A stretch of DNA of 64,000 bases from a bacterium (GTDB taxonomy: Bacteria > Myxococcota > UBA727 > JAUIJE01), in the NCBI GenBank assembly GCA_030431455.1, contig JAUIJE010000007.1:124001-188000 (forward strand), in the 5' to 3' direction. A program made the position numbers and the translations under genes. Below the pieces are notes generated by a model. The model searched no databases and was not told the origin of the DNA. It saw only the letters and a program-made list of their open reading frames with translations. Below, one piece after another: positions 29,205 through 54,802 of the stretch. Within the stretch, counting starts at the first letter, position 1. Each line of letters begins with the position of its first letter.

Positions 29205-31856
29205 ATGAGACGTGGGATGCGGAGCGTGGTGGTGGCGGCCAGCTTGATGCTTGGCGGTTTGCAGGTGACGTGGGCGGACCCGGGCTGGGCCCAAGGCTCG
29301 GACGGGCGCGCCCTGCTCGATCAGGGCAAGGCGGCGTACAAGGCGGGGGCGTACGACAAGGCGGCCACGTTGTTCGACCAGGCGTACGCGGCGGACAAGT
29401 CGTTGGTGCAGGCGCTGTACAACAAGGCGTTCGCCCTCCGCAAAACGAAGGCGTACCCCGCGGCCCGCGACGCCTACCGGGCGTACCTGCGCGCGGTGCC
29501 CGGCGACAAAGACGGATTGTTTGGCCTCGCCGAGACCGAGCGGCTCCTGGGCAACGCGGGCGAAGCCAGTCGGCTGTTCGCCGACTACATCGAAAAAGAG
29601 GACCGAAGCGACAAGGCCAAATACGTCGATTACGCCAAGCGGCGCGTGGCCGAGCTCGGGGCCGCGGCCCCGGCGAAGCCCGCGGCCCCCGCGCCACCGG
29701 CGGCCGCGGCGCCGGCGTCGGGTGAGTCGGTGGGCGCGCTCCTCGAGCGGGGCAAAGAAGAATACAAGCGCAAAGAGTTCAAAAAAAGTGCAGAGACATT
29801 TGCGCAGGCCGCGGCCCAAGACCCCAAGAACAAAGAGGCGCTCTACCGCCGCGCCCTGAGCCTGCGCAAGGCCAAGGACTACCCGGCCGCGATCAAAGCG
29901 TACGGGGCTTTTCGCCAAGAGGACCCGAACGACCTCGATGGGTTGTTTGGCCTGGCCGAGACCTACCGGCTCAACGGAGACAACGACCTCGCCCAGCAGC
30001 TGTTTGGCCAGTACGTCAAGGTCGAGCAGCGCCCGGACCGGGCCAAATACCGCGCCTACGCCGAGCGCCAGATCGCCAAGCTCAAGGACGCTCCCCCGAC
30101 GACCGCCGCCGCCCCCGCGCCGGCCGCGGCGACCACTGGCGCCCCCAAAGTGTCTGCATCCGCCATCGCCGCGTCCGCCCGCCGCATCGCCGAGGGGGAC
30201 GCGCTGATGAAGCAGAAGAAGTACAAAGAGGCCGCGGCGATGTACGCGGCCGCCCATGACAAAAACCCCACCGAGCCCCTCGCGCTGTACCGCCGGGCCC
30301 TGGCCTTGCGCAAAGCCGGGGACCTCGCGGGGGCGAAGGCCGCCTACGAAGCGTTCCGACGAGAACGCCCCGACGACATCGACGCCCTCTATGGCCTGGC
30401 CAAGACCGAGGCCGCGCTGGGGAACAGCGCCGCCGCGCGCGCCCTCTACCAACAATACGTCGCGCAGGAAAAACGCGAGAGCGAACAAAAGTACGTCGAC
30501 AAAGCCAAGGCTTGGCTCGCCGATCACGGGGGCGGCACCGCGGGCGAAAAGACCGCCGCGGCCCCCTCCGCGGCCCCCCCCGCGGCCGACAAGCCCGCGG
30601 CGACCGAAGCGCCGCCCCCCGCCGCGGCCGACAAGCCGCCGGTCAAGGTCTCGGCCCAGGACCGCCGCCGGGCTGAGCAGCTCGCCACCAAAGCCAAGAT
30701 CGCCTACGGCCAAAAGAAGTTTGGCAAGGCCGCGGACCTCTACCGCGACGCCCACAAACTCGATCCCAATCGTGACAAGCTGCTGTACCGCCGGGCCCTG
30801 GCGTTGCGCAAAGCCGGTGATCACGAGGGGGCCAAAGGCGCCTACGAGGCGTACCTGGCCGCGGTCCCCGACGACGTGGACGCCCTGTACGGCCTCGCCA
30901 CCACCTACAAGCTGCTCGACGACACCGACAACGCCCGCCGCTATTTTGCCCTCTACGCGGACAAAGAGACGCGCCCCAGCGAGCAGCGCTACGTCGACAA
31001 GGCCAAGGCCTACCTGGCCGAGACCGCCCCCGCCGAGGGCGCGATGCCCTCGACCCTCGACGTCGCGGATGTGCCGCCCGCCCCCGCGGCCCACGCCGAC
31101 GGCAGCGACGAGCGGCTCGCCCGGCACGTGATCGAGCCGCACCCCGAGGCCGGCCCGCAACCCGGCCACGTCGCCCCCCACGCCCGCATCTTGTCCGTCG
31201 ACGCCTTGTTGCGCGACGGCACCCGGGCCCTCGACGCCGACCCCGCGGTCGCGGCCGAACACGCGATGCTCGCCACCACCCTCGAGCCCGCCGACCCCCG
31301 CGGCCATCTCTTGCTCGGCCGGGCCTACGACGCCCAGGGGTATAAAAAGGACGCCGAGGCCGCCTACACCCGCGCCTCCCAGCTCGGATTGGACAAAGAC
31401 ATTGGGCGCGCCGCCCGCGCGATGATCACCGACGGCGGCCCCCGGCCAGGCCGCGGCCGGGCCAAGGCCCCCCCGGTGTCCGAGCGCAGCCAGGCCCGGG
31501 CCAATGGCCTCGCCACCACCGCCCAAGAGCTCGTGGGGCAGGGCGATCTCGCCGGCGCCCAGGAGACCTACCTGGCCGCCCTCGACGAGGACCCCAAGCA
31601 GTACGACGCGTTGCTCGGCCTCGCCGAGCTCCACATGCTGTCCCGCAGCCACGTCAAAGCCATCGCCGCCTACCGGCGTGCGCTGGCCGCCGCCCCCGAC
31701 CACGCCGCGCCGCTGTTTGGGTTGGCCCAGGCGTTCGAGCGCATCGGCAACCAACGCCAGGCGCTGCACCACTACAAGCTGTACCGCCAAAGCACCGCCG
31801 AAGACCGCGACCCCGAAAAGGCGCAGCTCGCCTGGCGCCGGCTCGAGGGGCTGTGA
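29205..31856 (+). CDS. Large secreted TPR-repeat protein
   Basis: 883 aa. N-terminal signal-like segment (SVVVAASLMLGGLQVTWA). Four long homologous blocks (about residues 30-150, 178-292, 330-448 and 490-610) each carry three tetratricopeptide-like helical pairs. Typical words are GKAAYKAGAYDKAATLF, ALYNKAFALRKTKAYPAARDAY and LFGLAETERLLGN. They are joined by Ala/Pro linkers. A last TPR region spans about 670-880. TPRs are protein-interaction scaffolds; periplasmic placement is inferred from the signal. The modular duplication is clear at protein and DNA level. It lies 39 bp after the unknown paralogue pair. Confidence 0.85.
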   Translation: MRRGMRSVVVAASLMLGGLQVTWADPGWAQGSDGRALLDQGKAAYKAGAYDKAATLFDQAYAADKSLVQALYNKAFALRKTKAYPAARDAYRAYLRAVPGDKDGLFGLAETERLLGNAGEASRLFADYIEKEDRSDKAKYVDYAKRRVAELGAAAPAKPAAPAPPAAAAPASGESVGALLERGKEEYKRKEFKKSAETFAQAAAQDPKNKEALYRRALSLRKAKDYPAAIKAYGAFRQEDPNDLDGLFGLAETYRLNGDNDLAQQLFGQYVKVEQRPDRAKYRAYAERQIAKLKDAPPTTAAAPAPAAATTGAPKVSASAIAASARRIAEGDALMKQKKYKEAAAMYAAAHDKNPTEPLALYRRALALRKAGDLAGAKAAYEAFRRERPDDIDALYGLAKTEAALGNSAAARALYQQYVAQEKRESEQKYVDKAKAWLADHGGGTAGEKTAAAPSAAPPAADKPAATEAPPPAAADKPPVKVSAQDRRRAEQLATKAKIAYGQKKFGKAADLYRDAHKLDPNRDKLLYRRALALRKAGDHEGAKGAYEAYLAAVPDDVDALYGLATTYKLLDDTDNARRYFALYADKETRPSEQRYVDKAKAYLAETAPAEGAMPSTLDVADVPPAPAAHADGSDERLARHVIEPHPEAGPQPGHVAPHARILSVDALLRDGTRALDADPAVAAEHAMLATTLEPADPRGHLLLGRAYDAQGYKKDAEAAYTRASQLGLDKDIGRAARAMITDGGPRPGRGRAKAPPVSERSQARANGLATTAQELVGQGDLAGAQETYLAALDEDPKQYDALLGLAELHMLSRSHVKAIAAYRRALAAAPDHAAPLFGLAQAFERIGNQRQALHHYKLYRQSTAEDRDPEKAQLAWRRLEGL

Positions 31857-48054: not shown

Positions 48055-49116
48055 TCAGTCCGAGACTTTTTCGCCCGCGGCGGCGGCGACTTTGTGGGCC
48101 CGGCCGCTGTCGCGGGTCAGCAGCCCGAAGCCGACAAGCTTGGCCAAAAGCCGCGCCCCGACGTTGGCGTCGATCGAGTCGGGTCCCTCGGGGCCCGGCG
48201 CGACCTCGCACAGGTCCGCCCCGATGATGCGCCGGCCGGAATGGTGCAAGGCCTCGAGCAACAGGACCGCCTCGTCGAACGACATGCCGCCCGGCACCGG
48301 CGTGCCCGTGTGGGGGCACTCGGTGGGGGACATGCCGTCGATGTCAAAGGTGACGTACACCGAGGGCGGGAGGTGGCCGACGGCCTCGTCGAAGAGCGCG
48401 CGCACGCGGCCCTCCGCCCGGGCGTGCCGCAGCTGGCGGTCGAACACCGGGTGCAAGTGATCGTGTTCCGTGAGCATCCGGTGCTCGGCCGCGCACAGGT
48501 CGCGCAGGCCCACCGACACCGTCGGCACCGGGCCCGCCCGATGCAAAAACTCGTACAAGAACGACGCGTGGGAGTGCACGAAGCCCTCGTAGGCGACGCG
48601 CAGGTCGGCGTGGGCGTCGACGTGCAGCACCCCCATGTCGGGGTGCGCCTTCTTCGCGGCCAACAGCGGGCCGAGGGCGATCGAGTGGTCACCGCCGACC
48701 ACGGCCACAAACGCGCCCCTGGCGTGCCAGGCCGCGCAGCGCTTCTGCAGGTCCGCGCACAGCTCGGCGCCGGCCGCATCGACGAGGGCGATGTCGGCGG
48801 GGTCGGGGTCGAGCTCGTTTTCCAAGGCCGCGATCACCCGGCGCGCGGCGGGGCGGACGTCATCGGAGCGCGCGCCCCAGTCGTACAGAATCTCGCTCGC
48901 GATCGCGTGCCGGCCGAGGTCGCCCACGTCGAGGTCGAACAGATCGATCTGGTGGCTGGCGCGCCGCATCGCCTCGGGGCCGTCCCGGGTCCCGGTGCGA
49001 AAAGACACCGTGGCCTCGTAGGGCGCGCCGAGGATCACGGCGTCGGCCTCAGACAGGTCCGCGTCGAGGCCAAAAAAGCCGCTGTCGGGAGAAGGGGGGC
49101 CGTCTTGGTCGGGCAT
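48055..49116 (-). CDS. Agmatinase/arginase-family ureohydrolase
   Basis: 353 aa binuclear manganese enzyme. Metal-ligand motifs are complete: GGDHSIALG, DAHADLR, SHASFL and FDIDGMSP. Family members release urea from agmatine, arginine or related guanidino compounds. Agmatinase (SpeB) is the usual match for this length, but formiminoglutamase or guanidinobutyrase activity cannot be excluded. It is convergent with the LeuA-domain gene, 7 bp apart. Confidence 0.88.
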   Translation of the reverse strand: MPDQDGPPSPDSGFFGLDADLSEADAVILGAPYEATVSFRTGTRDGPEAMRRASHQIDLFDLDVGDLGRHAIASEILYDWGARSDDVRPAARRVIAALENELDPDPADIALVDAAGAELCADLQKRCAAWHARGAFVAVVGGDHSIALGPLLAAKKAHPDMGVLHVDAHADLRVAYEGFVHSHASFLYEFLHRAGPVPTVSVGLRDLCAAEHRMLTEHDHLHPVFDRQLRHARAEGRVRALFDEAVGHLPPSVYVTFDIDGMSPTECPHTGTPVPGGMSFDEAVLLLEALHHSGRRIIGADLCEVAPGPEGPDSIDANVGARLLAKLVGFGLLTRDSGRAHKVAAAAGEKVSD

Positions 49117-49169
49117 ACAGGGGGTAAAGCGGGTTTGCGGTTTTTCGGCAAGGCCGGCAAGTTGCGGGA

Positions 49170-49745
49170 GTGAACCGCGTTTGGCTGGTCGTCTTGTCCA
49201 TGGGTCTGGCCGGGTGCCAGACGGTGACGGTGCGCGCCCCCGCGGGCACGGTGGTCAAGGTGGACGACAAGGAGCACGAGGTGGCCGACGGCGAGCGGGA
49301 CATCGAGGTCGCGCCCGGCTTCGCGCCGGTGCCCTATGAGGTGTTTCGCGCCGATGGCAAGGCCCCGCGGTACGAGGGCACGATCGAGCGCAGCGAGTTT
49401 TCGGTGTGGTGGGCGGTGGGGGCGTTGGCGTTGACCGCGTGTACGCTGCCGACGTGTGTGTTGTGCGCGGTGTCGGTGGCCAACCCGGGCTTGTTTGTGG
49501 CCCCGGTGTTCGCGGTGACCTCGGTCAGCTTCGCCCCGATTTCTGCGATCATCCTGGCCCCCTCGTGGTTCACCCTGCCGTTGGTCGGGGCCGGGACCGT
49601 GGCCGGGGCCCAGCCCCTGTGGCTGCTCGGCTTTGCCGAGCGCCTGCCCGACCAGGTCGAGCTCACCGCCGAGGGCGCGGTGCCTCTCGCGCCCGACGAG
49701 CGCGGTCGGCGGGGCCCGGCTTCGGCCACCGGGGTGCGGTTTTGA
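49170..49745 (+). CDS. Polytopic lipoprotein of unknown function
   Basis: 191 aa from a GTG. The signal peptide ends at lipobox GLAGC. A short soluble part with a PEGA-like strand pattern (VRAPAGTVVKVDDKEHEV) follows. Two or three hydrophobic segments lie at about 78-150 (WWAVGALALTACTLPTCVLC, VAPVFAVTSVSF, LPLVGAGTVAGAQPLWLLG). The combination suggests an inner-membrane lipoprotein. Its TGA overlaps the TTG of the following protease gene (TTGA), so it belongs to that cluster. Confidence 0.68.
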   Translation: MNRVWLVVLSMGLAGCQTVTVRAPAGTVVKVDDKEHEVADGERDIEVAPGFAPVPYEVFRADGKAPRYEGTIERSEFSVWWAVGALALTACTLPTCVLCAVSVANPGLFVAPVFAVTSVSFAPISAIILAPSWFTLPLVGAGTVAGAQPLWLLGFAERLPDQVELTAEGAVPLAPDERGRRGPASATGVRF

Positions 49746-51070
49746 ACGGGGCGGCCCGTGGCCTGGTGTTCGGGTGCCTGGCGGTGGCCGCGGCCACCGG
49801 CTGTGTGGTCCAGGGCCCGGTCGAGGTCGAGGCGTTGGTCGCCGACGGGCAGGGCAGCATGGAGCGCGGGGTGACGACCTTACAGACGGTGACCGACCTG
49901 TACGCGGGCACCGGCTCCGAGTTCGACGTCGTGGGCGGGCTGATGCTCACGTTCGATTTTGTGTTCACCACCATGACCACCGGCGACTACACCTATCCCC
50001 AGATGGTCGAGGAAGGCCGGCGCGGTGCCCGCAACGCGCTCAACCTGCGCCTGAGCGCCAACCCCTTGACCGGGGTGTACGAGAGCGAAGACTTCGACAC
50101 GTTTTTGTACCTGACGGTGTTTTCCAACGTCGAGAAGGCCTGGGCGTTCTTCCGCGACGACCTCGGGGACGACAGCGGCGCGACCCAGGACCACGGCCTG
50201 GTGGGGCTGTACGGCAGCCAGGTGTTGTCCTCGCTGCTGCCGGTGCCGATCACCCCGGGCAACGACAACGCCGCCTACGTGTCCATCGGCGATGTCTTTT
50301 ACACCCTGCGGGTGCACGACCAGGAGGGCATTCCCTTGGCCATGAGCCAGGGCGTGATCGCCCACGAGTTCGGCCACCGCATCTTTTTTCACAATGTGAT
50401 TGTGGACAATGCCTTTGAGGCCTGGAAAACGATCTTCGCCAATGTCGAGGTCGACCAACAAAATCCCCAGGCCGCGACCCAACAGAACTCCCGGGGGCAG
50501 ATCATCATGCGCGGCCTCGACGAGGGGCTCGCGGACGTGTTCGCGGTGTCGATGGTGGGCACCGGGCACTTCACCGAAGACTCGTTCATCGACTCCGCCT
50601 CCTCGCTGACCGGGGGCTGGAGCGACCAGGCCGCGTTCCGCGACCTCGAAGGCGACTTCGCGACGTTCGTCACCTTCGAACAGATGCAGGACGACGTCGA
50701 CAACGACCTCCCGTTCCAGTGCGGCCGCATCCCCGCGGTGGGCGAGGAGATCGACGGCCTCGCCAACGAGGTGTTCAATCCCTACTGCCTCGGCGTGCTC
50801 CTCGCGCGCACGGTGTACGAGGCCGCGGGCCGGTCCCCCGAGGTGATGCGCCGCGACTTCGCCCCCCGCATCCTGCCGGCCCTGCAGGAGACCGGGCGCC
50901 GGGTGGCGGCGGAGAGCGCCGCCCAGGAGGTGTTCAAGTTCGAACCCGAGTATCTCCTGGACGCGATCGCCCAGCAGCTCGCGGCCGACGACCGCGCGTC
51001 GTTCTGCGCGGTGGTCAAAGACCGGTTCTCGTCGCTGACCTCGGCGGGGGTGATCCCAACGTGTCCCTGA
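49742..51070 (+). CDS. Lipoprotein metalloprotease, thermolysin-like (gluzincin) motif
   Basis: 442 aa. The TTG start overlaps the preceding stop; lipobox AATGC near residue 21. The zinc motif H208-E-F-G-H212 is followed by DEGLADVFA with Glu at 261, which mirrors the NExxSDIFG third-ligand motif of thermolysin-type M4 enzymes. All expected catalytic residues are therefore present. Beyond these motifs the sequence is not a familiar M4 enzyme and lacks its propeptide layout. It is a paralogue of the gene at 51855 (same EDFDT, EQEGIPLA, RFSSL-type blocks). It is probably a surface or periplasmic protease. Confidence 0.75.
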   Translation: MNGAARGLVFGCLAVAAATGCVVQGPVEVEALVADGQGSMERGVTTLQTVTDLYAGTGSEFDVVGGLMLTFDFVFTTMTTGDYTYPQMVEEGRRGARNALNLRLSANPLTGVYESEDFDTFLYLTVFSNVEKAWAFFRDDLGDDSGATQDHGLVGLYGSQVLSSLLPVPITPGNDNAAYVSIGDVFYTLRVHDQEGIPLAMSQGVIAHEFGHRIFFHNVIVDNAFEAWKTIFANVEVDQQNPQAATQQNSRGQIIMRGLDEGLADVFAVSMVGTGHFTEDSFIDSASSLTGGWSDQAAFRDLEGDFATFVTFEQMQDDVDNDLPFQCGRIPAVGEEIDGLANEVFNPYCLGVLLARTVYEAAGRSPEVMRRDFAPRILPALQETGRRVAAESAAQEVFKFEPEYLLDAIAQQLAADDRASFCAVVKDRFSSLTSAGVIPTCP

Positions 51071-51762
51071 CCAGCCTGGTCCTGTTGTGGGCCCTCACCG
51101 GCGCGGGCCCCGACGACGCCCCCGACGGCCTCGTCGACGACGGCGCGCCCGCCGCGGCCGAAGACCGTACGCCCGCCGCCGCCCCCGCGGACCCGCCCGC
51201 CGACGCCCTCGACGAGGACGCCGCCACCTCTGCAGACGAGGCCGCGCCCACCCCCGCGGTGCCCGACGAGTGGACCTTCCGCGTGGACACCGGCGTCAAC
51301 TGGCTCGCCACCGGCGCGGCCACCGGGGTGGGCACCAACGTGCTCCCGGTCTACGAACTCGGCTTCGGCTTTCGCCGGCAGGTGGGCGTGCCCGGCTTGG
51401 TGCTCGGGGGCATCACCTCGGTGGGGTTTGCCCAGGAGTCGGCCGGCAACCGCACCGTCCGGGTGGGGGCGGCGTACCTGGCCGCCGACCTCCGCGGGTT
51501 CTGCGGGTACGAGCTGCTCGACTCCCAGCGGTTCGGGCTGCTGCCGTACGCGTACGCAGGCACATTGGTCGGCGGGGGACCGGGCGCGACCAAGGTCAAC
51601 GCCGACGTCGCCTACCGCGTGGCCGTGCTCAGCGGGCTGATGGCCGGCGTGGGGGTCGAGCTCAGCCTGTGGCAGGTGGTGTTCGCCCTCGATCTCGGCG
51701 CCGGCGTCGCCAACTTCCGCGTGGCCTTACAAAGCCGCGCCACCGTCGGCGTACGCTTCTAG
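51061..51762 (+). CDS. Outer-membrane beta-barrel-like protein
   Basis: 233 aa from a GTG overlapping the protease stop by 10 bp. A weak signal sequence (SLTSLVLLWALTGAG) precedes a 60-residue acidic Ala/Pro/Asp linker. The rest is alternating short strands rich in Gly, Val and aromatic residues (WTFRVDTGVNWLATGAATGV, LLPYAYAGTLVGG), ending in the typical outer-membrane C-terminal Phe (TVGVRF). About eight strands would make a small barrel. It is sandwiched between two paralogous protease genes, suggesting a shared envelope function. Confidence 0.62.
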   Translation: MSLTSLVLLWALTGAGPDDAPDGLVDDGAPAAAEDRTPAAAPADPPADALDEDAATSADEAAPTPAVPDEWTFRVDTGVNWLATGAATGVGTNVLPVYELGFGFRRQVGVPGLVLGGITSVGFAQESAGNRTVRVGAAYLAADLRGFCGYELLDSQRFGLLPYAYAGTLVGGGPGATKVNADVAYRVAVLSGLMAGVGVELSLWQVVFALDLGAGVANFRVALQSRATVGVRF

Positions 51763-51854
51763 GGCCACGCTTCCAGAGGCCACCCGGCGCGTGTGGGGGG
51801 GTGTCGCCTGTCCCGTCGGGGCCGGGGCCGACCCGGCGTCGATACAATGGTCCC

Positions 51855-53177
51855 ATGCCCAACCACGCGGTCCGGGGAATGTGCCTGAGCGTCCTGCTCG
51901 GGGCCGGCTGTGCCCCCATCGTGGGCCCGGTCGACGTCGAGGCCGCGGTCCCGCAGAGCCTGCTCGCGGCCGATTACCGGCTGGAGACGGTGCGCCTCGA
52001 GACCGTGACCGAGCTCGGGGCGGGCCGGGGCACGCACTTCGACATCGTCGGGTACTTCAACATCACCAACGACTTCTTGCAGGCCAACATCGACTTCGAC
52101 GACAAGGACGCGCAGTCGTCGATGAAGCGCGAATCGCGCGCCTACGGGTCGTCGGGACCGCTGGCCCCGCGCCTGCGCTACAACCCGGTGGCCGATCGCT
52201 ACGAGGCGGAGGACTTCGACACGCTGGTGTACCTGTCGGCCTTCCACGCCTTTGAGAACATCTGGCGCTACTACGAAGACACCATCGGGGACGGCACCCG
52301 CGCGACCCGCGAAAAGACCATCGTCTCGTTGTACGGGGGCGCGGTGGCCAGCGCCCAAGTGCCGATCACCATCACCGCCACCCACGACAACGCCGAGTAC
52401 CTGCCCACCGGCGACGTGTTCGCGATCAAACGCGTGGAGGAACAAGAGGGCATTCCCCTCGCGGTGAACTGGGCGGTGTTGGCGCATGAGTTTTTCCACC
52501 GGGTGTTTTTCCACCACGTGCAAAGCGAGGGCGGGGCCCTCAAGTACGTGATCGACGTGATTTGGCCGGGGGAGGTCGCCGGGGGCCGGAGCCCGGGCGA
52601 CAACGACAACCCGCGGGCCTACCAGGTCTACCGGGGGGTCAACGAGGGCCTGGCCGACATCTTCGCCATCGGCATGACCGGCCGCACCTCGATTTTTGTG
52701 GGCTCGGACCAGGATCCCACCTTCCATTTGCACAGCCGCTACCGGGACCTGACCGGCGACTTCGCCGACGAGCTCACCTACGAAGCGCTCACCAATGCCA
52801 TTGAGGATGACACCGGCCGTAAAAAATGTGGCAAGCTGCCGGTCGATGACGAGGACGAGAGCTTCATCAATGTGTACTGCCTGGGCACCCTGGTGGCGCG
52901 GGTCATCTACGACACCGCGGACAAGGACTTCGAGCTTCTGCAGAGCCGGGTCTTGCCCCAGGTGCTCAAGGTGTTGCGCCCCCTGGGCGAGGACATCGCG
53001 GTGCGCAGCGAAGAGGACGAAGGCCGGCTGAGCTTCGAGGTCCCGATGCTGTTCAACCGGGTGTTTGACGGGCTCGATCCCGACCTGCGCGAAGGGTTCT
53101 GCGACTCCCTGCGGGGACGCTTCTCGTCGGTGTACAGTGACATTGTGGGCTGCGCGGCGCTGCTGCCGCTGCCCTGA
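51855..53177 (+). CDS. Lipoprotein metalloprotease, thermolysin-like, paralogue
   Basis: 440 aa. Lipobox LLGAGC near residue 19. Zinc motif H211-E-F-F-H215 and NEGLADIFAIGM with Glu at 264 repeat the pattern of the gene at 49742. Aligned blocks include YEAEDFDTLVYLSAFHAFEN, EEQEGIPLAVNWAVLAHEFF and the C-terminal GFCDSLRGRFSSVYSD. Two Cys pairs (KKCGKLP, NVYCLGTL) occupy the same places as in the first copy. It is separated from the beta-barrel gene by 92 bp, so it may have its own promoter. Confidence 0.75.
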   Translation: MPNHAVRGMCLSVLLGAGCAPIVGPVDVEAAVPQSLLAADYRLETVRLETVTELGAGRGTHFDIVGYFNITNDFLQANIDFDDKDAQSSMKRESRAYGSSGPLAPRLRYNPVADRYEAEDFDTLVYLSAFHAFENIWRYYEDTIGDGTRATREKTIVSLYGGAVASAQVPITITATHDNAEYLPTGDVFAIKRVEEQEGIPLAVNWAVLAHEFFHRVFFHHVQSEGGALKYVIDVIWPGEVAGGRSPGDNDNPRAYQVYRGVNEGLADIFAIGMTGRTSIFVGSDQDPTFHLHSRYRDLTGDFADELTYEALTNAIEDDTGRKKCGKLPVDDEDESFINVYCLGTLVARVIYDTADKDFELLQSRVLPQVLKVLRPLGEDIAVRSEEDEGRLSFEVPMLFNRVFDGLDPDLREGFCDSLRGRFSSVYSDIVGCAALLPLP

Positions 53178-53182
53178 GCCGG

Positions 53183-53530
53183 TCAGAACCGCATCAGCAT
53201 CGCGCCCACGCCGCCTTTGGCCGCGGGCATGAGCAGGTTGCCCACCTTCTCGACGAGGGCGGTGTCGCCCATGGCCACGGGCACGAGCTCTTCGGCGGAC
53301 GAAAAGGTGCCGGACACCAAGGACTCGAACACGTCTTGGCTCCAGGTGAGCACGAGGTCGGCCTCCAGGCTCAGCTCGGCGGACAGCGCATCCGGCGCGG
53401 CGTGGTCCCCGAAGCGCAGGGTCCACGCCCCGACCCCGTGCACGATGATGCACACCGACCCGCGGTTGCGATCGAACAGCAGGCTGCGCTTTTCGATCAC
53501 CGCGGGCAGGGCCCGTTCAAAGAATGTCAT
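53183..53530 (-). CDS. SCP2-like lipid-carrier domain protein
   Basis: 115 aa. The pattern (RNRGSVCIIVHGVGAWTLRF, AELSLEADLVLTWSQDVFES, then LVPVAMGDTALVEKVGNLL) fits the sterol-carrier-protein-2 fold, a lipid-binding pocket protein, at about the normal domain length. There is no signal peptide, so it should be cytoplasmic. The ligand is unknown. The start at 53530 is chosen at MTFFERALPAV. It is convergent with the second protease gene, with 5 bp between stops. Confidence 0.68.
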   Translation of the reverse strand: MTFFERALPAVIEKRSLLFDRNRGSVCIIVHGVGAWTLRFGDHAAPDALSAELSLEADLVLTWSQDVFESLVSGTFSSAEELVPVAMGDTALVEKVGNLLMPAAKGGVGAMLMRF

Positions 53531-53553
53531 CGTGTCCACACCGCCCGTTACGG

Positions 53554-53588
53554 GGCGCGGCCGCACAAAAAAAGCCCCGCGCCGCGGG
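53554..53588 (-). terminator. Terminator-like hairpin upstream of the SCP2-like gene
   Basis: On the minus strand CCCGC-ggc-GCGGG (53576-53588) is followed by GC and seven Ts (53567-53573), which looks like an intrinsic terminator. It lies 37 bp before the ATG of the SCP2-like gene and no minus-strand gene ends there. A competing stem ggcgcgg/ccgcgcc (53554-53560 with 53577-53583) spans the T-tract. It may be an attenuator or a chance structure. Confidence 0.35.
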
Positions 53589-53812
53589 CCGGGCCGGCAC
53601 CGTCCGCGCCTGCGGACGCCACCCCCGGCGCGCTCACCGGTGCCGAAGTACCCGCCGGGACTTGCCGTGACCATCCGGAAACAACCTGTAACCATATGAA
53701 TTGACGAGCATTTTTCTTTTCCGCGGCCGGCGCCAAAGTCGGCTGATCCGGGCTATAGCTTGCACAACCTCAGGCCCCCCGGGGCCCCGATTTTCAACAA
53801 GAGGAGACATCC

Positions 53813-54583
53813 ATGGCCCGCATTTCCCACTCGACCCCCATGACCGCCTACGACCACATCGCGAAGATGCTCGAGGACAAAGCTGGCCCGGACGGCATCG
53901 TCTCCCGCGCCGACGCCGAAGCCCTCGTGACCGAGCTGCGCAAGGACGGCCGCGGCACCGAGGCGCTCGCCGCCAACAACCTGTTCAAGATGATCGACGC
54001 CTTCGACAACAAAGAAGGCGCCCGCGTCACCGGCTTCGACCTCAAAATCAGCCGCAAGTTCGTCGAAGAGAAAATGCTCGAGAACCGTGACGTCAACCGC
54101 AACGGCTTCTCCCACGCCGAGATCGAGAAGATGTCGCCCACCGCGCGCGCCCTCGTCGAGCTCGGCCAGACCCTCGAGATCGCCAGCAAGGGCGGCCGCA
54201 TCGCCCACAGCGTGCCCGAGCAGGGCGCGGAGCACATCGCCTCGCTGATCCTCAAGTCGGCCGGCGCCGACGGCATCATCAGCCGCAAGGACGCGGACGC
54301 GCTCTTCGACAGCCTGTACGCCGAAGGCCGGGGCACCGAGAAGATCGCCGCCGAGTACTTCTTCTCGTTCATTGACCACCGCGACCACGAAAAAGGCGCC
54401 CGGGTGACCAGCGCGGACGTGGACAAGGCGCTCGCCTACGCCAAAGAGAAGCTCCTCGAGAACAAAGACAAGAACAACAACGGCTACAGCAAAGACGAAG
54501 TGGCCAAGTTCTCGACCACCGCCAAGGCGTTCTTGCTCGTCGGCCAGATGATCGAGGCCGGCATCATCAAGATGGAAGCCTGA
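53813..54583 (+). CDS. Duplicated EF-hand-type calcium-binding protein
   Basis: 256 aa, no signal peptide or membrane segment. Two homologous halves (about 10-120 and 138-248) each begin with a helical region (SRADAEALVTELRKDGRGTE and SRKDADALFDSLYAEGRGTE). Each ends in a canonical 12-residue EF-hand loop, DVNRNGFSHAEI and DKNNNGYSKDEV, with acidic residues at the first and last ligand positions. Weaker DGI(V/I)SR loops near 25 and 155 may be partner hands. AAGAGGAG precedes the ATG and a strong terminator follows. It is probably a calcium buffer or sensor. Confidence 0.78.
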   Translation: MARISHSTPMTAYDHIAKMLEDKAGPDGIVSRADAEALVTELRKDGRGTEALAANNLFKMIDAFDNKEGARVTGFDLKISRKFVEEKMLENRDVNRNGFSHAEIEKMSPTARALVELGQTLEIASKGGRIAHSVPEQGAEHIASLILKSAGADGIISRKDADALFDSLYAEGRGTEKIAAEYFFSFIDHRDHEKGARVTSADVDKALAYAKEKLLENKDKNNNGYSKDEVAKFSTTAKAFLLVGQMIEAGIIKMEA

Positions 54584-54728: not shown

Positions 54729-54802
54729 GGCGTCGTGCCAGAGTGGCTATGGAGTGGTCTGCAAAACCATCTACACCGGTTCGATTCCGGTCGACGCCTC
54801 CA
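54729..54802 (+). tRNA. tRNA-Cys (GCA anticodon)
   Basis: 74 nt with encoded CCA. The acceptor stem GGCGTCG pairs with CGACGCC (54792-54798), and TCCA ends the gene. The anticodon stem GTGGT/ACCAT encloses loop CTGCAAA with anticodon GCA at 54761-54763. The T stem ACCGG/CCGGT has loop TTCGATT. Confidence 0.97.

Follow-up and report, generated by a model that had tools for sequence, protein, structure and literature searches.

A putative lipid-anchored protease of thermolysin-like fold encoded next to a predicted outer-membrane barrel in Myxococcota and on the Bdellovibrio side

Introduction

Enzymes of the thermolysin type are normally synthesised with a propeptide, which helps them to fold and keeps them inhibited, and both the Myxococcota and the Bdellovibrio side include many bacterial predators. 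This work describes a cluster of four genes located between positions 49,170 and 53,177 of a 64,000-nucleotide stretch of a Myxococcota genome (contig JAUIJE010000007.1, positions 124,001 to 188,000), hereafter called the window, which encodes two paralogous predicted zinc proteases with a lipobox, a small protein with a lipobox and a predicted small outer-membrane beta-barrel. With the thermolysin family M4 (thermolysin, aureolysin, ProA and LasB), these proteases share the whole catalytic fold (as predicted for protease 1), the HExxH motif with a Glu about 50 residues further on, the Asp four residues after that Glu, and the equivalents of Asn112-Ala113 and Arg203, the position of His231 being occupied by Tyr or His. 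They differ from M4 in the absence of a propeptide, the presence of a lipobox, the barrel partner, the Tyr that takes the place of His231 in 74 of 100 aligned homologues, and in showing only weak matches to Pfam M4. Fungalysins (M36) are the top structural match (Z 22.7), tied with M4; the window proteases again differ from them in lacking a propeptide and in having a lipobox, and Pfam M36 matches in the family are few and weak.

Other described systems resemble parts of the cluster. BepA, a member of M48, is an HExxH zinc protease acting on outer-membrane proteins; it belongs to a different family and is not known to have a lipid anchor or a dedicated adjoining barrel gene. The eight-stranded barrels of the OmpA domain, OmpW, OmpX and PagL are similar to the barrel of the window in length, signal peptide, mostly aromatic C-terminus and predicted fold, whereas barrels of the window type have a variable N-terminal tail, a fixed place behind a protease gene and no invariant column. 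FibA (Mxan_6106) of Myxococcus xanthus, also from a myxobacterium, is described as a thermolysin-like metalloprotease and a lipoprotein, and Ala at position +7 after the lipobox Cys is reported to be essential for its transfer to the matrix (PMC3222651); it differs in its architecture of 744 aa, which combines Pfam M4/M4_C with an FTP propeptide and two PPC domains (PMC3236237). No description of a protease-barrel pair of this kind was recognised in the open-licence papers searched, which is weak evidence.

Results

Organization of the cluster

The cluster contains the following features:

49170-49745, + strand: small lipobox protein, 191 aa, GTG start.
49742-51070, + strand: protease 1, 442 aa, TTG start, with the lipobox Cys at residue 21.
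50363-50377, + strand: HEFGH motif of protease 1 (His208, Glu209, His212), two zinc ligands and the catalytic Glu, from the sequence and the family columns.
50522-50524, + strand: Glu261 in the DEGLAD motif of protease 1, third zinc ligand, invariant in the 53-row alignment.
51061-51762, + strand: predicted small outer-membrane beta-barrel, 233 aa, GTG start, ending in ..VGVRF.
51855-53177, + strand: protease 2, 440 aa, ATG start, with a lipobox; paralogue of protease 1.
52485-52499, + strand: HEFFH motif of protease 2, from the sequence.
52644-52646, + strand: third-ligand Glu in the NEGLAD motif of protease 2, from the sequence.

The initial annotation had described a cluster of four genes with the first three start/stop-coupled, and frames, coordinates and overlaps were found as claimed. 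All four genes are on the + strand and the first three overlap: the start of protease 1 and the stop of the small lipobox gene share four bases (TTGA), the TTG being the start that we chose as likely, and the 5' end of the barrel gene overlaps the end of protease 1 by 10 bases. A gap of 92 bases separates the barrel gene from protease 2. An alignment of both proteases over 442 columns shows 36% identity (E 2e-82), in agreement with the paralogy proposed for them. A scan of positions 48900-53800 found no sigma-70-like promoter, a result of little weight in this high-GC genome.

Family, fold and active site of the proteases

Neither window protease reaches the cut-off of any Pfam or NCBIfam family. 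Both lack a match to Pfam M4 up to E 1 and to the M36 models of Pfam and NCBIfam, and protease 1, compared by sequence with solved structures, shows no match at E<=1. Among 53 homologues, matches at E<=1 are weak and scattered: Pfam M4 in seven (best E 0.001), which is the only part of the FibA-type combination of FTP, M4/M4_C and PPC to appear, Pfam M36 in six (best E 0.002), and two NCBIfam M36 models in three and one, respectively (best E 0.0083 and 0.058). The FTP/PepSY propeptide is absent from the 16 Pfam families found at this threshold in these homologues, as is M48. When the family profile was compared with solved structures, fungalysins came on top; the best, 7qp3, has an E value of 0.3, which is not significant, and its alignment falls on HEYxH, EG..D and GTV.A..LYE.

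The AlphaFold model of protease 1, built from the 53-row alignment, has a mean predicted local distance difference test score (pLDDT) of 83.8 and a predicted template modelling score (pTM) of 0.88. By VIA, it matches 7qp3 (M36) with Z 22.7 (root-mean-square deviation, rmsd, 3.5; 300 aligned residues) and 4tln (thermolysin) with Z 22.1 (rmsd 3.3; 278 aligned residues), and the next fold group, M1, follows at Z 11.3. The model of this protease thus has a thermolysin-like two-lobe fold, matching M4 and M36 over the whole chain. The alignment with 4tln begins at residue 21 of protease 1, the lipobox Cys, opposite residue 2 of the 4tln chain; since the catalytic fold starts at the lipobox Cys, there is no room for a propeptide. 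The view that these proteases do not look like classical M4 enzymes was right for their sequences, which pass no family cut-off, but the predicted fold is that of M4 and M36 throughout. Pfam and NCBIfam assigned no named peptidase family. The best reading is that the proteases form an undescribed, unnamed thermolysin-like branch near M4 and M36.

Both window proteases have the HExxH motif and the C-terminal Glu ligand, which are invariant in the 53-row alignment. In an alignment of 100 homologues, which includes some near-identical or repeated sequences, His208 is present in all 100, His212, Glu261 and Asp265 in 99 each, Glu209 in 96, and Asn176 and Arg300 in 95 each, while position 348 is occupied by Tyr in 74 and by His in 22. 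All the zinc ligands are thus kept in both proteases, as the initial annotation had stated. Asn176-Ala177, Asp265, Arg300 and residue 348 are the positions which we take to be equivalent to Asn112-Ala113, Asp170, Arg203 and His231 of thermolysin, by position and motif, judged by eye and not by a residue-level superposition; the Tyr/His split at residue 348 fits the equivalence to His231. The column of the lipobox Cys21 shows Cys in 94 of the 94 rows that have a letter, with six gaps. Judged from their sequences, the proteases are probably lipoproteins, tethered by lipid to the outer membrane. The residue at +7 is Ala in the M. xanthus homologue (locus L049) and is not Ala in the window proteases.

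Conservation of the protease-barrel pair

Loci were examined in three partly overlapping surveys: a scan of one genome per species, further Myxococcota loci, and loci of the Bdellovibrio side. The first survey shows a barrel-like gene downstream of the protease and on the same strand in 52 of 55 loci, 41 of them recognised by a hidden Markov model (HMM) and 11 from the sequence of the adjacent gene as read; in L056 and L064 the contig breaks off, and L074 has no barrel. These loci belong to Myxococcus, Corallococcus, Pyxidicoccus, Archangium, Hyalangium, Citreicoccus, metagenome-assembled myxobacteria, unplaced "Deltaproteobacteria" and one Bdellovibrionaceae record. The second survey comprises 20 loci, some representing additional families of Myxococcota and some being second copies, and shows a barrel by reading in 17 of 18 uncut loci, L135 being without it; L142 and L143, cut by a contig end, were left out, and L143 repeats L056. 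Repeats were kept in each survey's own counts (L139 is L069, and L144, L145 and L146 are L092, L091 and L093, respectively). The third survey shows HExxH and a barrel in 20 of the 20 best-scoring loci that were read. In another set of 18 loci, L025 has no barrel, whereas a barrel was read in L021, L023, L024, L026 and L029; L022 repeats L039, and others repeat loci of the first survey. Locus L071 shows no aligned protease, yet its barrel matches the HMM. Homologues of the proteases thus do occur with a barrel-like gene, in nearly all the uncut loci that were read, the point on which the initial annotation had made its reading depend.

The stop codon of the protease gene shares four bases with a start codon in the barrel frame in 43 of 51 loci of the first survey (L056, L064, L071 and L074 left out of the 55), an overlap that is partly expected once the frame is fixed, since any TGA that follows A, G or T creates such an overlap. 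The remaining eight loci have a possible barrel start at most 20 bases from the protease stop or overlapping it. By a crude rule, a barrel-like frame comes next after 39 of 47 proteases, against eight of the 458 remaining genes of these loci and one of 23 other genes with a lipobox; the 47 are those of the 55 loci longer than 9000 bases, and many of them are related by descent. The rule failed on eight of the 47, of which at least L049 has a true barrel by the HMM. A chance neighbourhood is unlikely, given the spread of the arrangement over families and phyla and the baseline of 8/458.

Conservation of the order protease-barrel-protease was not found. Among the matches listed (113 + 89 genomes), two separate genes of the family lie side by side only in the genome of the window, and in the other genomes with several matches these are split between contigs, widely separated, or fragments of a single open frame. 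The conserved unit is a protease followed by a barrel.

A lineage without the catalytic residue

The myxobacterial family f24 has the protein in five of 12 genomes, and the catalytic Glu is missing in all five: four show HALGH and one HAVGL instead of HExxH.

Members without the catalytic Glu: loci L124-L127 and L173, in genomes G063, G064, G066, G067 and G059.

Asn176 and Ala177 are also altered in the four aligned members. The frames are open, and the ratio of nonsynonymous to synonymous substitution rates is 0.21, 0.31 and 0.37 in three comparisons, which indicates purifying selection; a barrel gene is downstream in each of the four loci whose sequence extends beyond the protease gene. The catalytic Glu has been lost while the protein and its barrel have been kept, and therefore the fold has a use without catalysis.

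The barrel protein

In the putative barrel protein of the window, a signal peptide is followed by an Asp/Ala/Pro-rich tail (about residues 17-70), about eight predicted strands and a C-terminal Phe. By VIA, its model matches PagL with Z 13.0, OmpW with 11.7 and OmpA with 11.6. Pfam OMP_b-brl was found in 15 of 35 aligned barrels (best E 1.7e-7) and Pfam PagL in seven of them (best E 5.7e-4), the barrel of the window having neither. A PagL-like enzyme was considered and rejected, no conserved active-site column being present in these 35 poorly aligned barrels. The N-terminal tail ranges from almost none to more than 400 residues, and in L128 the barrel domain begins at about residue 467 of 631. 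The neighbour of the protease is barrel-like in kind throughout, and no sequence link between the barrels of different lineages was found.

A short stretch rich in Pro and aromatic residues, or in Pro and Leu, recurs across lineages just after the signal peptide (barrels of L049, L092, L126, L127 and others); examples are PYAYPDEE, VPLLPPRE, VPLLPPRD, TPFWIP, TPFWLPPP and APIPYDD.

A single-protein search of the window's own genome gave one clear copy of the barrel. Two further matches (E 2.8e-4 and 0.0015), both in frames of more than 1100 aa, are confined to residues 26-122, a region made up of the Ala/Asp/Pro-rich tail and the first strands, and were judged to be matches of composition.

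The small lipobox protein

The first gene of the cluster encodes a protein with the lipobox LAGC followed by a long hydrophobic stretch, probably of two or three spans (by eye). Its N-terminal part resembles a PEGA domain, although Pfam PEGA was passed only by the homologue of genome G032 (E 2.3e-7), and not by two other homologues tested or by the window protein. The gene is single copy in its own genome. Homologues adjoin the protease in genomes G002, G006, G008 and G032; the gene is upstream of the protease and overlaps it in all three other genomes of the same order that have the protease, and in G032 it comes after the barrel. From this arrangement, the small lipobox protein appears to be the third gene of the unit in the taxonomic order of the window.

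Distribution and genomic surroundings

The protease was found in 113 of 195 genomes of the window's phylum. On the Bdellovibrio side, meaning the phylum to which G196 with the Bdellovibrionaceae record belongs, 89 of 290 genomes have it. M. xanthus falls in family f13 (by matching coordinates), and this family accounts for 89 genomes among the matches listed, 81 of them with one copy; its genome G056 shows no match in the single-protein search, and neither do nine genomes of family f8, eight of f5 and three of f18. The unit is also present in small genomes of 2.1-3.0 Mb. In the M. xanthus genome searched, the L049 copy is the single match to the family at E<=1e-5. The genome of the window has a third protease copy (contig C18 of G000, locus L025), more distant, with 28% identity and a long branch in the tree. 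In this tree, made by a quick method, proteases 1 and 2 join sequences of the same order at an open fork. A pattern scan of contigs found the family in Myxococcota, Bdellovibrionaceae, unplaced "Deltaproteobacteria" and one record titled Comamonas only; distant members elsewhere may escape such a scan, and the profile was not run on other phyla. The latter record (L059, titled Comamonas sp. KCTC 72670) contains a protease-barrel locus of Myxococcus type and is probably mislabelled.

In M. xanthus (L049) the pair is located between aspS and recJ, and aspS also lies upstream in the other Myxococcaceae loci in which it was looked for. The neighbourhood of L049 was matched neither to M. xanthus RecJ 3580 nor to the RecJ-like 2984 named in PMC12288472, and no locus tag was tied to it. 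Several Corallococcus and Myxococcus loci, and some others, show a larger barrel-like gene immediately before the protease, with a product of about 360-450 aa; two of those below were tested and have no Pfam match:

L044, 6714-7970: larger barrel-like gene upstream of the protease.
L045, 6621-7970: larger barrel-like gene upstream of the protease.
L086, 6789-7970: larger barrel-like gene upstream of the protease.
L052, 6884-7963: larger barrel-like gene upstream of the protease.

Locus L047 shows two large proteins after the pair, the first with a Lamin Tail domain, and by length several other loci of metagenome-assembled genomes show them too.

Downstream of the cluster, the window contains a gene for a 256-aa protein with repeated acidic EF-hand-like loops (by eye; 53813-54583, + strand), followed by a tRNA-Cys gene (54729-54802). 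The tRNA at 54729 is the sole Rfam match of the window; ARAGORN also reports a tRNA of undefined kind with a two-base anticodon at 30517-30609 (- strand), where Rfam finds none, and which is probably false.

Discussion

The lipobox, the fold, the catalytic and substrate-binding residues, the lack of a propeptide and the downstream barrel-like gene in two phyla are apparent from sequences and model, and what emerges is a thermolysin-fold branch without a propeptide, with a lipobox, and paired with a barrel in two phyla. The reading that we prefer, to which we give a rough probability of 0.57, is that of a lipid-anchored zinc endopeptidase of thermolysin/fungalysin fold, in complex with a small outer-membrane barrel of about eight strands, for the processing of envelope or surface proteins. 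An envelope protease unit, in line with the suggestion of the initial annotation, is probable. The lipid would hold the enzyme at the outer membrane, and the barrel would place or hold the protease there, with its N-terminal tail in the periplasm. As in thermolysin, Glu209 would activate the zinc-bound water, Tyr or His348 would stabilise the transition state, and Asn176 and Arg300 would hold the backbone of the substrate, which may be an envelope or surface protein to be trimmed or removed. In the genome of the window, a second protease gene lies beside the single barrel, and the small PEGA-like protein may be a further component in this taxonomic order. In the lineage of f24 the complex would also have a structural or binding role.

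Several observations weigh against this reading. The model of the window barrel is moderate (pLDDT 66.6, pTM 0.50), and a Foldseek search with it gave nothing at E<=0.001, the best match being OmpA (E 0.0015). The barrels align poorly, the 35-row alignment having no invariant column. One common descent for all of them was tried with the HMM of the Myxococcaceae barrels, which after iteration is confined to 41 loci of Myxococcaceae type and reaches neither the window barrel nor the other lineages tested, leaving no sequence link; in a tblastn search over 18 loci, the window barrel found one other locus, at E 0.017 only. Outside these 41 loci, "barrel" means a protein read as such from its signal peptide, length, strand-like sequence and usually aromatic C-terminus. 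The three uncut copies without a barrel (L025, L074 and L135, in genomes G000, G046 and G097) are extra paralogues, each genome having another copy with a barrel. Most of the loci from Myxococcaceae represent a single inherited neighbourhood and do not count as independent cases. The window lipoboxes, AATGC and GAGC, do not have the textbook Leu-led form; lipobox and barrel neighbour would place the enzyme at the outer membrane, and the face of the membrane on which it would lie is an inference. The lineage of f24 counts against a pure protease, and is the strongest hint of a task linked to the barrel that does not need cutting.

An unlikely alternative is a FibA-like protease, either secreted or at the surface, a lipoprotein going to the surface or matrix for feeding or predation, with the barrel as a helper in export, folding or display that replaces the propeptide. 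The absence of a propeptide domain and the wide distribution of the family in Myxococcaceae and in 89/290 genomes on the Bdellovibrio side are consistent with it; its presence in small genomes speaks against it, and an eight-stranded barrel is not known to have a pore for a folded protein. The M. xanthus protein of L049 has Ala at +7, as reported to be essential for FibA (PMC3222651); this Ala may be structural, the rule was tested on one protein, and the window proteases do not have it.

It is likewise doubtful, as an extension of the preferred complex of protease and barrel, that the barrel and its periplasmic tail replace the propeptide as folding helper, inhibitor or anchor, that the protease fold can be converted to a non-catalytic subunit, and that the N-terminal Pro stretch is a docking peptide.

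We consider quite improbable a quality-control role like that of BepA, in which a periplasmic enzyme acts on outer-membrane proteins and the barrel is a client or regulator and not a stable partner. A precedent exists in BepA, an M48 protease of E. coli (PMC7950410), and the protease described here does lie among outer-membrane proteins, with the larger barrel-like gene just upstream in some Myxococcaceae. However, a client need not stay encoded beside the enzyme across two phyla, the pair outlasts the loss of the catalytic Glu, and the families found include no Pfam M48. That the genes are together by inheritance only, without a common function, as the one inherited place of L049 and other Myxococcaceae pairs beside aspS and the barrels unlinked by sequence might suggest, is very improbable in view of an arrangement found at unrelated places in many families of two phyla, with start/stop overlaps in 43/51 loci and a baseline of 8/458 for a barrel-like neighbour.

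The complex of a lipid-anchored protease with a barrel, if correct, concerns groups whose envelope proteases are poorly known, since the branch without propeptide, with a lipobox and with a barrel gene occurs in the Myxococcota and on the Bdellovibrio side. Because 81 of the 89 listed f13 genomes have one copy, its deletion in a laboratory strain would be straightforward, and the natural lineage with a dead active site is a ready test of a non-cutting role of the pair.

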